Shown here piece by piece: positions 24,504 to 29,356 of a DNA stretch of 37,391 nucleotides. The position numbers and the translations under genes were made by a program. The notes under the pieces were generated by a model, which was given only the letters and a program-made list of their open reading frames with translations, was not told where the DNA came from and searched no databases. The stretch lies in the NCBI GenBank assembly GCA_005879985.1, contig VBIA01000126.1, forward strand, positions 1 to 37,391, written 5' to 3'. Source of the DNA: Chloroflexota bacterium. GTDB taxonomy: Bacteria; Chloroflexota; Dormibacteria; Dormibacterales; Dormibacteraceae. Every line of letters starts with the position of its first letter. Position 1 is the stretch's first letter.

Positions 24504-25133
24504 TCAGACGGCCGTGAAGAGGGTGACGGCCCCGCTTGCGATCAGAACCAGGCTCCACCCGAGGTCGAGGTTGAACCAGCTGCGCCGCAGTATGCCGACA
24601 CCAACTCTTTCGTAGACAACCACCGAAACCACGCCCATCACAAAAAGCATGGCCGCGACATGCAGCGAGGCAGCGGCGACAGCCTGCAGCGATATCTCAC
24701 GAAGACTGTGATAGGCGGCATACACCGGCAAGCCTAAAAGTACTGGAGCCAGCATCAGCCCGGCGCCATGGGCTGACGACATCAGGAACGACCAGCCGGC
24801 GAGACCGGTGAAGCCGACACGCATGCCGAAGCCGCTTGGATGCGAGCGAAGCCGCAGCAGCTTGTACAAACCGAAGGTCACCAGGACCAGCGCCGCGAGC
24901 AGGCGCACGAAAAATGGCGGCACGAACGCCTCGGTTAGGGAGACCGCAACCACTACCATCACGATCGAGGCTTCGTGTCCGATCGCGATCGGCAGGAGCG
25001 AGCTCAACACCGCCCGGCGACTTTTCTCTTGCATGCCGCGGGCGACTGCGAACAGCCAGCCCATTCCTGGATTGATGCCGTGATAGGCCCCGAGCAGCGC
25101 GAGCGCTGCCCAGGGCCACAATGCGTTGATCAC
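24504..25133 (-). CDS. Polytopic membrane protein of unknown function, coupled to SBP56-like gene
   Basis: GAYHGINPGMGWLFAVARG, multiple TM segments; 4-bp overlap with upstream gene. Confidence 0.85.
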   Translation of the reverse strand: MINALWPWAALALLGAYHGINPGMGWLFAVARGMQEKSRRAVLSSLLPIAIGHEASIVMVVVAVSLTEAFVPPFFVRLLAALVLVTFGLYKLLRLRSHPSGFGMRVGFTGLAGWSFLMSSAHGAGLMLAPVLLGLPVYAAYHSLREISLQAVAAASLHVAAMLFVMGVVSVVVYERVGVGILRRSWFNLDLGWSLVLIASGAVTLFTAV

Positions 25134-26518
25134 GAGTAGCAGTAAGAGTCGGACGAAGCGTCGCCGCCTTGGAGGTGAACCTGATGCGTACGCTGCTCGA
25201 ACGTCGAGAAGAACCCATCGTCCAAGCTCAAGCCACCCTCCGGCCTGGCGTGAATCGAAGTCGCCCAGCTCTTGATCCCTTCGGGATAGAACTGCTCATC
25301 CCAACTTGCGTACAGCGAGTTGGTTAAATAGGCGCGATTTCCGTCGCGGCTGAGCTCGACCATCTGCGGGCCGCCGTTCAGAGGTCCGCTCTTCGGATGC
25401 GCGGCCTTGCGCACGATGCCACCGAGGTGAACGCTACCTGTCTTCTTGGGCTTGAACGGATCGCTGACGTCGAACTGGAGGAATTCGCCGGTCCCCCATG
25501 CTGAGACGTACAGCCAACGATCGTCCAGCGAAAGGTTGATGTCAGTGACCAGGGGCGGCACGGCCTTGAAGCCCTTGAGTAGTGGCGGCAGGTCGTTGGG
25601 ATCGGCAGGCTCGGCAGGGATCTCGATGACTTTCTCGACTTTGTAAGTTGACCCGTCCAGATACCACGTCCAGATCGATGAGCTGAGGTCCTTCAAGCTG
25701 ACGACCACACCGACGAATCCGTGCGCCTTGCTAGGATCGTGGGCGGGACGAAGCTCGAGCACCATCTGCTGCTCCTTGCCGAGGTCGATCTCCTGACGAT
25801 GGCGTCGCTTCGGCAGGTCCCAGATGTGGAGCTTGTGGCCGTATTGGCCGGCAAGTAGGAGCTCAGGATTGACACCGGCCTCGACCATGTTGGGAGTGCC
25901 CCATTCACTGGTGATGGCGGTGTCGTAGCCGAGATGCCACCAGAAGTCATAGGCCAGCTGCTGCGGCCCGCGGTCGAGCTCCCAGCGACCTTTGACCGCA
26001 AAGGTGTCGTGGTCGATGACGAAGATCCCGCCAGGAGCATTGCCATCCGGAGCGCCGAGCGCGCTCACGTAGATACCGTCGGGCCCACAGTGAATGGTGT
26101 GCGGGCGGCTGTAGCCCGCCCGCTCGGCGATCTCTTTCGCCTCGATCGTGTGCACGAGTTTAGGTTGTTTGGGATCTGGCTTGATGTCGAAAATGTAGAT
26201 GCGGGATGAGCGCAATCCGGGAACCAGCAAGTAGCGTCGCTCGAGATGAGGATGGGCGGCGTACGGGCACAGGGCCGAGCTGCACACATTCCATCCGAAG
26301 TGGTGGAACTCGTCACCCACGTTCGGAACTTCGGCGCGGCCGACCTGCGTGCCAAAACCAGCCGACTTTGGGTCGACGTCCAGCGTCAATAGCCCGTCCG
26401 GCTTTTTTCGGTTCGGATCGAATGTGACCATGTAGGCCAGCGTTTCGACTGGCGCTTTTGCCGCGAGGCGGGGCGAGGGGTAGAAGGTTTGATCGGGTTT
26501 GAGAAGGGTGGTTGCCAT
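25130..26518 (-). CDS. Selenium-binding protein SBP56 / methanethiol oxidase family
   Basis: HHFGWNVCSSALCPYAAHPHLERRYLLVPGLRSSRIYIFD; QVHLQGGDASSDSYCYS C-terminus; AAAGGAG SD. Confidence 0.93.
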   Translation of the reverse strand: MATTLLKPDQTFYPSPRLAAKAPVETLAYMVTFDPNRKKPDGLLTLDVDPKSAGFGTQVGRAEVPNVGDEFHHFGWNVCSSALCPYAAHPHLERRYLLVPGLRSSRIYIFDIKPDPKQPKLVHTIEAKEIAERAGYSRPHTIHCGPDGIYVSALGAPDGNAPGGIFVIDHDTFAVKGRWELDRGPQQLAYDFWWHLGYDTAITSEWGTPNMVEAGVNPELLLAGQYGHKLHIWDLPKRRHRQEIDLGKEQQMVLELRPAHDPSKAHGFVGVVVSLKDLSSSIWTWYLDGSTYKVEKVIEIPAEPADPNDLPPLLKGFKAVPPLVTDINLSLDDRWLYVSAWGTGEFLQFDVSDPFKPKKTGSVHLGGIVRKAAHPKSGPLNGGPQMVELSRDGNRAYLTNSLYASWDEQFYPEGIKSWATSIHARPEGGLSLDDGFFSTFEQRTHQVHLQGGDASSDSYCYS

Positions 26519-26620
26519 GAGCTTCTCCTTTCAAGCGCCCAGGGGGGCAGGGGTTCACTCGGTTGAAAGGACAGGTCCCCATCGACCGGGCCGGGGGCCC
26601 GGCGCTAGCGACCTAACAGG
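26519..26620 (-). promoter_or_regulatory. Structured 5' leader with Shine-Dalgarno sequestering inverted repeat
   Basis: TTGAAAGGA/TCCTTTCAA perfect 9-bp repeat (26526-26534 and 26563-26571), alternative GCGCC/GGCGC and GGGCC/GGCCC stems. Confidence 0.55.
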
Positions 26621-27317
26621 TACAGAAGCAGTGCGGCGCCTCTATGAGCCGGTGGGCCGGGAACCGGAGGTCGAGCTCCATCCATTTGGAGTTTATACCC
26701 GAGCCAATGAATTCGCTGTCGACCGTCGCCGACTGCTCTCCGGAGAGTGATGGGGCGCCGTTGGGATCGAGCTCAACGCGCATCCGTTGGTCTTCGCGAA
26801 CCGCGGCCCCCACAGCTGGCTCGTGAATAGCTTCGCCACTAAGTCCTAGCTTGCCTGAGTCGGAGCCGAAGCTCTTTTGTCGTGCTTCGGGCCGAATCAG
26901 CACACCCTGTTGGTGCTCGCGCAGCGGTGCGGCCGCCGCAGCCAGCGCGGCGGCCGATCTTGCGGCTCAGGGCAGCGGTTTCAATCGCGCGGCTGACGCT
27001 GCCCGCGCCGCCTGGGTTGGGCGCGAGATACAGGGGGTTAAGAACCTCCACGCTGAGCGGCGAAGCCCGCACCCCTGGCTGTCGGGCCCCGCACTCGCAA
27101 CCGGCGTGTTCTTGTTGGATTCTGTCGCGATGTTCGGCGCCACATTTTGCAACGGACCGACGTTTTGAGATGCCGGTGTGACTCTCGCCGGAGAACGGCG
27201 TAGCGCTTGAGTTTGTCGCCCTAGATCGGAGCCGTTCGGCTGCCAAGTTTCGATAACAATTCGCCATCGATGACTGCGGATCACGCGACCTAGCCCGAGG
27301 CGCGGCCGTTCGACAAG

Positions 27318-27821
27318 TCAGGTCTTCCGCTCACGAATTTGCTCGAGCGTGCGCCGCAGAAGCGGCAGCTGAGCTAGATCCTTATCCCGACCGGCCGCTT
27401 CTTTGGAGCGGATGACATCGCGTAACGAGGCGACTGATACAGAGATCCCGGGACCTATTCGCGTGCGCAACGCCTCTCGGCGAAGATCGCGGTAGCCCCG
27501 CGTGCCTGACGGCGTGAAGCAAATATCAAGCTCGCCGGCGGATGTGGTCAGCGTCCACAAGTCGGCGGTTCGCAGCATATGCGCGTCGAGCGGAAACGGG
27601 ACGCCCCCCCTGTCGCTCGGACTCCGCAAGCGGGCGCGAAGCTCTTTGAGCGCCGCCACGAGACGTTCGAGGTTCGCCTTGTCGGTCGCAGGCGTGATGT
27701 CGATGTCCTCAGTCACAACCGGAGCGCCTGCAATGCGGGCGGCGGCGGCGCCGATCAGAACGAATCGGACCCGATGGCGCTCCAGGGCTCCCAGGATCTT
27801 TAGCGGATCAGGCTCGGACAC
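27318..27821 (-). CDS. Nucleotidyltransferase-like protein (AbiEii/MNT-type fold)
   Basis: RVRFVLIGAAAARIAGAPVVTEDIDITP (G-x-DxD layout). Confidence 0.78.
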   Translation of the reverse strand: MSEPDPLKILGALERHRVRFVLIGAAAARIAGAPVVTEDIDITPATDKANLERLVAALKELRARLRSPSDRGGVPFPLDAHMLRTADLWTLTTSAGELDICFTPSGTRGYRDLRREALRTRIGPGISVSVASLRDVIRSKEAAGRDKDLAQLPLLRRTLEQIRERKT

Positions 27822-28137
27822 TACGAGGCCTGGCTGTCAGCGCGCCGAATTGCCGGCCGGCCATCAGGCCACGCCGCAGCCGTTCGGCTGGGGTGCGGCG
27901 TAGTTCGCGCTCGATCAGGACCTGGTCGTGATTGCTAGGGTCGACCCTGGCTAGCCTCATGCTCAACTCGAAACCGGCGGCTCTGATCAGGGAGCGCAAC
28001 CGCTCCAGGCTCGGAGTCACCTCGTAGCGTTCGTAGCGGCCGATCAGAGATGGCGGCACCCCGCTCCGCCGGCTGAGTTCCGCCTGCGAGATGCCCGCTC
28101 GGCGTCTGGCCTCGACCAGCAAATCCCCGCCTACCAT
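27808..28137 (-). CDS. XRE-family HTH protein
   Basis: ARRRAGISQAELSRRSGVPPSLIGRYERYEVTPSLERLRSLIRAAG; 14-bp overlap with the NTase gene. Confidence 0.9.
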   Translation of the reverse strand: MVGGDLLVEARRRAGISQAELSRRSGVPPSLIGRYERYEVTPSLERLRSLIRAAGFELSMRLARVDPSNHDQVLIERELRRTPAERLRRGLMAGRQFGALTARPRSVRA

Positions 28138-28319: not shown

Positions 28320-28943
28320 ATGCGCCTTGATGAGCCTTTGGACGACATCTTTGCCACCGCCAGCCATGTAAGGCTGCTCCGCGCTTTGTTCGCGCTTCCG
28401 CATGACGTTGGCAGGAGCGGCCGCGACTTGGCACGGCGCGCCGGGGTCTCCCATCCACGCGCAAACCAGGTACTGGCCGACCTTGCCGCGCAGGGGCTGG
28501 TCGCGGTGCAACGGATACCGCGGACGGGCCTCTATCGCATTAACCGGCGCCATGCCCTGGCTGAGCCACTTCGCGAGCTCTTCGAGTTGGAACCAAAGTT
28601 GAAATTTGAACTCCTCTCGCTCGTGGCAATGGAACTGAAGGCGCGGCATCTCCCTATTAAGGAGGCCCGGATTTTTGGCAGTGCGGCTCGAGGCGCGATG
28701 GCGGCGACGAGTGACGTCGACCTTGCCTTGGTTACAGCGCGTGAGAGCGTAGCCGCGGTAGAGGCCGCGGCGCAGGAAATAGCCGAGACGGCCCGTGAAC
28801 GGTTCGGGACGCGATTGAATGTGCTGGTGGGTTCACCATCGCTCGAGAAATTGAGCAAGGGCCGTCAAGCGGGACAAGGTATCTGGCAGGCGATAGAGCG
28901 TGATGGCATCGATGTACTTGCGCCTCTTAAGGCCGCCAACTGA
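28320..28943 (+). CDS. wHTH-fused MNT-type nucleotidyltransferase (TA antitoxin-like)
   Basis: N-terminal wHTH (GRSGRDLARRAGVSHPRANQVLADLAAQGLV) and IFGSAARGAMAATSDVDLALV. Confidence 0.88.
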   Translation: MRLDEPLDDIFATASHVRLLRALFALPHDVGRSGRDLARRAGVSHPRANQVLADLAAQGLVAVQRIPRTGLYRINRRHALAEPLRELFELEPKLKFELLSLVAMELKARHLPIKEARIFGSAARGAMAATSDVDLALVTARESVAAVEAAAQEIAETARERFGTRLNVLVGSPSLEKLSKGRQAGQGIWQAIERDGIDVLAPLKAAN

Positions 28944-29356
28944 TGGCAAGGGGCAAGACGGTGCAAGTCCGGGGCAACGAGGCCCGGCTCTATTTGGACA
29001 AGGCTGTTCAATTCATTGAACAGGCCCGGGCCGGACTCGATGCCGGCCGCAACGACGCGGCGCTCTTAGAAGCAATTCATGCTGCAATCAGCGGTACCGA
29101 CGCAGTGACCACGGCGCTAGCCGGCGTTCGTTCGACCGACCCGGACCACCAGCGGGCGGCAGACTTGCTAGAGGACATCGTGGCTGTGTCCGACGACCGC
29201 CAACGGGCGCGTCAGCTGAGATCCCTGCTTGCGCGCAAGAATGCAGTGGAATACGAATCCCGGAAGACCAGCCCAAAAGAGGCGCGCGATGGTGTCGAAC
29301 GGGCTGGCCGTATCGTGGATTGGGCTAAGGAAGTACTGGCAGCGGCCCGACTCTAG
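28943..29356 (+). CDS. HEPN-domain-like protein (divergent motif)
   Basis: Helical, small, starts in TGATG overlap with MNT gene; LRSLLARKNAVEYES at motif position. Confidence 0.75.
   Translation: MARGKTVQVRGNEARLYLDKAVQFIEQARAGLDAGRNDAALLEAIHAAISGTDAVTTALAGVRSTDPDHQRAADLLEDIVAVSDDRQRARQLRSLLARKNAVEYESRKTSPKEARDGVERAGRIVDWAKEVLAAARL

Follow-up and report, generated by a model that had tools for sequence, protein, structure and literature searches.

A conserved leader-peptide ORF with a stem-loop at its stop codon precedes SBP56 and sulfurtransferase genes in Dormibacteria and probably acts as an attenuator

Introduction

Which kind of control, if any, is exerted by the DNA immediately upstream of an SBP56 / methanethiol oxidase-like gene in a member of the Dormibacteria is the question raised by the locus presented here. 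The window, i.e. the whole stretch of 37,391 nt that was analysed, contains this gene on the minus strand, preceded by an interval (26519-26697) that the initial annotation proposed as a candidate leader of the translational riboswitch type. In that reading a transcript leader of ~165 nt starts from a possible promoter, the Shine-Dalgarno (SD) sequence of the SBP56 gene is hidden in a perfect inverted repeat, and part of the same bases can instead join a competing fold, giving two mutually exclusive ON/OFF states.

Comparison of the upstream DNA of SBP56 orthologues returned a conserved block of another nature: a 22-codon reading frame (26681-26613, minus) that is absent from the earlier reading and is more strongly conserved than anything else in the interval. 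Here we describe this frame, the structure at its stop codon and the genes found behind it, and weigh the regulatory mechanisms that could account for them. L and f numbers denote individual loci and families, respectively.

Results

The locus and its initial interpretation

Pfam bears out the SBP56 identity of the downstream gene (Table 1); the NCBIfam MtoX model scores it at 94.8 bits, well below the 650-bit cut-off, as a related protein. A 209-aa probable membrane protein (24504-25133, minus), which has no match in Pfam or NCBIfam, overlaps the SBP56 end by 4 nt and is probably co-transcribed. Two further places in the window resemble toxin-antitoxin systems on inspection: on the minus strand, 27318-28137 holds an XRE-type regulator and a nucleotidyltransferase-like ORF, and on the plus strand, 28320-29356 holds an MNT/HEPN-like pair.

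Table 1. Features of the SBP56 locus in the window, with the evidence for each.
Feature	Position	Strand	Evidence
Leader-peptide ORF, 22 aa, MELDLRFPAHRLIEAPHCFCTC followed by stop	26613..26681	minus	49 distinct conserved copies; synonymous/non-synonymous test; core pattern match
TGC-TTC-TGT (Cys-Phe-Cys) codons	26622..26630	minus	nearly frozen, third positions included
Stem-loop UAGGUC...GACCUG with inner GC stem, from the leader stop codon	26572..26615	minus	local fold z
-10 box TAAACT, overlapping TATAAA (26697-26692)	26690..26695	minus	box placement across copies
Anti-SD arm TCCTTTCAA	26563..26571	minus	sequence; core kept in 7/10 close loci
SD arm TTGAAAGGA	26526..26534	minus	sequence; SD opening energies
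SBP56 / methanethiol oxidase-like gene, 462 aa	25130..26518	minus	PF05694, E 2.2e-181

Several elements of the initial reading were recovered. The two arms of the repeat pair perfectly over 9 bp across a 28-nt loop and the second of them overlaps the SD of the SBP56 ATG (26518), as claimed. The putative promoter TCGACA-N19-TATAAA is present at 26722-26692, where a simple sigma-70 scan scores it under its threshold, and the proposed ~165-nt regulatory 5′ leader agrees with the transcript length from the leaderless-type start described below. What can be retained is a regulatory leader, the place of its promoter and an SD/anti-SD helix in close relatives, but not a ligand riboswitch with exclusive folds. 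Neither the window nor the related loci gave any Rfam 15 family at gathering, and accepting E-values up to 10 returned two chance-level matches on the opposite strand (E>1). On inspection, the aligned leaders of the relatives do not preserve the AGCGCC/GGCGCT stem supposed to close the alternative fold, and over its full 199 nt the leader is no more stably folded than shuffled sequences (z -0.76).

A short ORF conserved as protein

The frame is unannotated and ends in Cys-Phe-Cys-Thr-Cys. Orthologous leader peptides are MGLDLRFPAHRLIEAPHCFCTC, MSLDLCFPAHRLIEAPHCFCTC and MNPDLEFPAHRLIEAPDCFCTC, and at SBP56 loci further removed the sequence is ..WPAQRLVHAPAVFCS or ..WPAQRVVHAPAVFCF. Across copies the peptide spans 17-27 residues, and its core, [WFY]PA[HQ]R[LV]xxxPx[CV]FC, carries conservation beyond the codons that would do the sensing. 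The end takes the forms CFCTC, CFCS or VFC, with Phe between the cysteines and no contiguous Cys run, and four SBP56 leaders have a single Cys codon (PAVFC). Inspection of the peptides revealed no hydrophobic signal segment.

Substitution in the ORF frame is biased towards synonymous change, with pS/pN of 0.56/0.22 in SBP56 leaders (pN/pS 0.39) and 0.40/0.085 in the leaders of a second gene, a sulfurtransferase (pN/pS 0.22); the other two frames show pN > pS. Because pS exceeds pN in the ORF frame only, we conclude that the leader ORF evolves as protein. Searches of Pfam and NCBIfam with the window peptide gave no match, none of the NCBIfam leader-peptide models fits it, and in the literature we found neither a link between SBP56 or rhodanese and a leader peptide nor any leader peptide from Dormibacteria. 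The peptide with its post-stop stem-loop is conserved and apparently undescribed so far.

The leader precedes two sulfur genes

A degenerate DNA pattern for the leader core matches the window once (26622-26660, against 0.00 matches expected by chance). Among 85,462 species the exact pattern occurs 38 times. Of these matches, 27 read as short leaders of the two genes and come almost entirely from Dormibacterota/Chloroflexi MAGs; the remaining 11, spread over unrelated taxa, appear fortuitous. When one mismatch was tolerated, the pattern matched 35 of the 42 genomes in the window's Dormibacteria family; as a control, the reversed pattern gave three matches in 110 genomes of the window's class. 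Removal of copies left 49 distinct leaders, and every one of them precedes either an SBP56 gene (14) or the second target, a double-rhodanese sulfurtransferase adjoining a DUF4395 gene (35). The window's own genome has one leader per gene class (the window for SBP56, L089 for the sulfurtransferase).

PAPS reductase and PALP-family (cysteine-synthase-like) loci from nine genomes (125.8 kb) contained no Cys-ended leaderless ORF, apart from one stray match (L121), and for that reason the leader set bears little resemblance to a regulon for cysteine biosynthesis in general. Judged by what lies behind the leaders, SBP56 and the sulfurtransferase would most likely form a small ribosome-controlled sulfur regulon.

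Some SBP56 loci lack the leader. L002 and L003 retain promoter, anti-SD and SD but have neither the ORF nor the stem-loop's 5′ arm; their SBP56 is 97% identical to that of the window and the source genomes belong to other genera, suggesting transfer of the locus. Three other orthologues, 89-90% identical (L006, L010, L011), have entirely different upstream DNA and no leader.

Promoter placement and frozen codons

Of 47 measurable copies, 45 have a TA[A/G]ACT or TANAAT-like box at a distance of 7-12 nt upstream of the leader ORF; the commonest distance is 9 nt, and in the window the ORF starts 8 nt past the -10 box. A gap of this size leaves no space for an SD, and leader translation is therefore probably leaderless, with the ORF standing first on the transcript. 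In sulfurtransferase promoters (e.g. L059, L076, L082) a GGGAATT-like element is also conserved, ~17-19 nt upstream of the TTGnnTAGAATTG box; as a -35 it is non-standard, and it could be the signature of a specific sigma factor.

The codons at the leader end are constrained as well. TGC is used in 38 of the 38 leaders having Cys at that position, TTC in 42/42, and TGT encodes the last core Cys in 39/42, all being counts over copies that share descent and hence non-independent events. Cys codons of the 49 downstream genes are TGC in 86 cases vs TGT in 4 (4/90, 4%). Since TTC is invariant and TGT is frozen though rare downstream, selection at the nucleotide level appears to act on top of coding.

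A stem-loop at the leader stop codon

Either at the stop codon or within about 9 nt of it a stem-loop begins. The window's copy is unusually stable against shuffles (z -3.2), and mean z is -2.95 in eight close SBP56 leaders (upstream control 0.14) and -2.10 in the 35 sulfurtransferase leaders (upstream control -0.64); distant SBP56 leaders have a weaker one (z -0.89). Because indels left RNAalifold uninformative on the whole 35-sequence sulfurtransferase alignment, the hairpin was excised and its pairs counted alone. Over 20 distinct sulfurtransferase leaders, 97.5% of the cells of its 14 pairs are paired; both sides have changed in 4 of the 14, which 1 of 500 shuffles reached, and the covariation score is 0.148, with 0/500 shuffles reaching that score and 0/500 that pairing. 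Loops and inner stems vary freely among relatives, and divergent genera carry unrelated hairpins at the equal place, such as GUCGGCU-UUC-AGCCGAC at the L107 stop codon. No intrinsic terminator is found in 26450-26780.

These features bear on another possibility, namely that the ORF codes for an independently acting small protein and stands ahead of the two genes merely as a member of the operon. Protein-level conservation would be expected of such a gene, but so close a tie to just two sulfur genes points to action in cis, and neither the nucleotide-level freezing of the last codons nor a stem-loop constantly placed at the stop codon suits it; we regard this explanation as highly improbable. 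On the sequence comparisons made here, the ORF is very probably a real, translated regulatory leader.

SD accessibility differs between the two gene classes

Within the 9-bp repeat, a 7-bp core (TCCTTTC/GAAAGGA) is kept in six of the ten close SBP56 loci, window included. L008 makes a seventh, with a compensated 8-bp version in which CCTTTCAA/TTGAAAGG has become CCTTTCAT/ATGAAAGG, and in L004, L009 and L012 the repeat is lost. It is no feature of sulfurtransferase leaders.

Hence the helix is real in the window and in six of nine close relatives, and a stable GC hairpin adjoins it, as one might expect if a metabolite stabilised one of two folds and thereby hid or freed the SD. Yet the hairpin and the anti-SD helix are non-overlapping neighbours rather than competitors; the helix is absent from the three orthologues just named, the SD is open in sulfurtransferase leaders (see below), the hairpin varies freely in its loops and inner stems, and the conserved block is a coding frame favouring synonymous change, with no aptamer and no Rfam match. 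The ligand riboswitch reading of this interval does not stand, and we give it hardly any probability.

In the window the SD opens at a cost of 6.7 kcal/mol, compared with 5.6 +/- 2.1 for shuffled sequences; taken by itself, the window therefore shows no exceptional sequestration. The mean for eight close SBP56 loci is 6.8 vs 5.8 kcal/mol, six of the eight being costlier than their shuffles, while the 35 sulfurtransferase leaders are more open than shuffles (4.2 vs 5.9 kcal/mol). SD sequestration as a principle common to all leaders was rejected, given the opposite behaviour of the sulfurtransferase leaders. The anti-SD helix is, as far as these sequences indicate, an added layer in most close SBP56 loci and not the shared mechanism.

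To model a stall, the leader was masked as far as a ribosome halted at its stop codon would reach. SD opening changed from 6.7 to 6.3 kcal/mol in the window and little in most other copies; the barrier was clearly lower in L004, L008 and L015. L015 has an 8-bp stem, UAGCUCCU/AGGAGCUA, that joins the stop-codon region with the SD, and masking the leader brought its cost from 7.2 down to 4.8. Purely translational attenuation, in which a stall on the Cys codons unmasks the SD (the mechanism reported from mycobacteria), draws on these three loci and on the costlier SD of most close SBP56 loci; against it are the small effect of the stall elsewhere, window included, and the open SD of the sulfurtransferase leaders. 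We consider it a rather doubtful account when taken by itself, although it could serve as a second step of an attenuator.

Another possible second step is transcription attenuation, probably Rho-dependent: once the leader is released, C-rich, G-poor RNA behind the stem-loop would be exposed and lead to termination, which a stalled ribosome would prevent. Between stem-loop and SD, C outnumbers G by 110:49 in close SBP56 loci and by 388:233 in sulfurtransferase loci, the SD of the latter is open, and a single mechanism would cover both gene classes. C-richness is weak evidence, however, and the C-rich stretch lies at least 40 nt past the stop codon. This variant, too, is a tentative proposal, to which we attach the same modest weight as to SD unmasking.

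Apparently different control of the same genes in other families

Family f3 loci have no leader peptide of the PAxRLxxxPxCFC type. There, an inverted repeat (TTGTTGAGTTTGTGAATyCrGTTAGTCAAC or similar) stands before SBP56 and sulfurtransferase alike, located just before the gene in sulfurtransferase loci L148-L153 and SBP56 loci L017, L019, L020, L021 and L025. A DNA-binding regulator probably controls the pair in this family and, because the two genes share the operator-like repeat, f3 lends independent support to SBP56 and sulfurtransferase as one regulon.

Sulfurtransferase genes of family f2 (L165, L166, L176-L180, L182) follow a different Cys-containing leader ORF, LTRRxWLDWGRCR.., which we take to be reminiscent of actinobacterial leader peptides. 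In family f4 (L154-L156, L158, L160, L161, L192-L195, L197-L200) a conserved CGATGTA-like element precedes the sulfurtransferase; it apparently represents the Arg-Cys codons (CGA TGT) of a third leader ORF, ..RC[RM].., with a GC-rich hairpin directly after. At the level of sequence, these cases support the idea that Cys-containing leader ORFs are a recurring solution in the class.

Discussion

A coding leader, leaderless-type spacing, a post-stop stem-loop, linkage to two genes and a frozen rare Cys codon together lead us to read the interval as a leader-peptide attenuator that governs a sulfur regulon of two genes, an interpretation we hold to be likely. Transcription would start at the AUG of the 22-codon ORF or a few bases off, and translation would proceed without an SD. 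At the last residues (..PxCFC..) the speed or arrest of the ribosome would depend on the sulfur state of the cell, the ribosome's position would determine the formation of the stop-codon stem-loop and, through it, the amount of SBP56 made. The subsequent step could be either SD unmasking, partly supported in the SBP56 branch, or Rho-type transcription attenuation. What is sensed would most likely be cysteine supply, at the rare UGU codon and/or via the nascent PAxRLxxxPxCFC peptide; a response of the leader to cysteine, or to a sulfur signal akin to it, seems likely in itself. That the leader is translated, that the ribosome stalls on it, that cysteine is what is sensed and which way expression then moves are all inferred.

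Some observations speak against the attenuator. There is neither an intrinsic terminator nor a fold switch common to all copies, and the modelled stall fails to open the SD in most; single-Cys PAVFC leaders are weak support for a pure Cys-tRNA sensor; PAPS reductase and PALP-family loci showed no similar ORF; and L002 and L003 have no leader ORF.

Thiosulfate sulfurtransferase is one target of the mycobacterial polycysteine leaderless ORFs, which by analogy are the nearest known systems to the Dormibacteria leader. Such short ORFs were reportedly described by Canestrari et al. in 2020. PMC9031893 presents them as attenuators in which cysteine availability sets ribosome speed, PMC13236596 describes translation attenuation of cysteine genes, and the ORFs are also cited in PMC9094748. 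Both systems combine a short ORF of leaderless type, Cys codons at its end, sulfur genes (by position, only SBP56 and the double-rhodanese sulfurtransferase lie behind the leader described here) and RNA structure between ORF and gene. They differ in that the mycobacterial Cys tract is contiguous, whereas the Dormibacteria leader has C-F-C and in some copies a single Cys; furthermore, in Dormibacteria the whole PAxRLxxxPxxFC core is conserved, SBP56 is a target, the SD is hidden in a subset only, and the phylum is another.

TnaC-type arrest peptides have their conserved residues within ~15 positions of the stop, near the peptidyl-transferase centre. The Dormibacteria leader resembles them in being short and conserved near its end, its arrest being hypothetical; to our knowledge the sequences are unrelated. 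We may speculate that nascent PAxRLxxxPxCFC represents a new class of sulfur-sensing arrest peptide, detecting cysteine, persulfide or thiol within the ribosome, perhaps via its terminal cysteines, and controlling methanethiol oxidase and rhodanese as a sulfane-sulfur regulon of two genes, although we think this unlikely. With translational riboswitches the locus shares an SD/anti-SD helix in a long leader, but here the reading frame is conserved and an aptamer is not.

Copper offers a further alternative, as bacterial SBP56 is copper-dependent (PMC5739008) and the peptide may end in CxCxC. CutF of the Rhodobacter capsulatus cutF-cutO system is an exported copper uORF product that carries a signal peptide as well as a proline-rich motif for stalling (PMC9973294), and it resembles our locus in having an upstream Cys-containing ORF and a stem-loop before (in CutF, over) the ribosome-binding site of an oxidase gene. 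Unlike CutF or CruR, the Dormibacteria peptide has 17-27 residues, no signal peptide and, for the window copy, no Pfam/NCBIfam match; some copies have one Cys, and the second target is a sulfurtransferase and not a copper protein. A copper-sensing uORF consequently appears very unlikely.

If the attenuator reading is true, ribosome-based sulfur control extends to Dormibacteria, which are uncultured soil bacteria, and the SBP56/methanethiol oxidase gene shares one regulon with a sulfurtransferase. The conserved core, the frozen rare Cys codon and the stop-codon stem-loop are such that simple mutants could separate codon-supply sensing from nascent-peptide sensing. Finally, with the same genes apparently placed under an operator-like repeat or other Cys-containing leaders in sister families, the locus points to regulatory turnover within one bacterial class.
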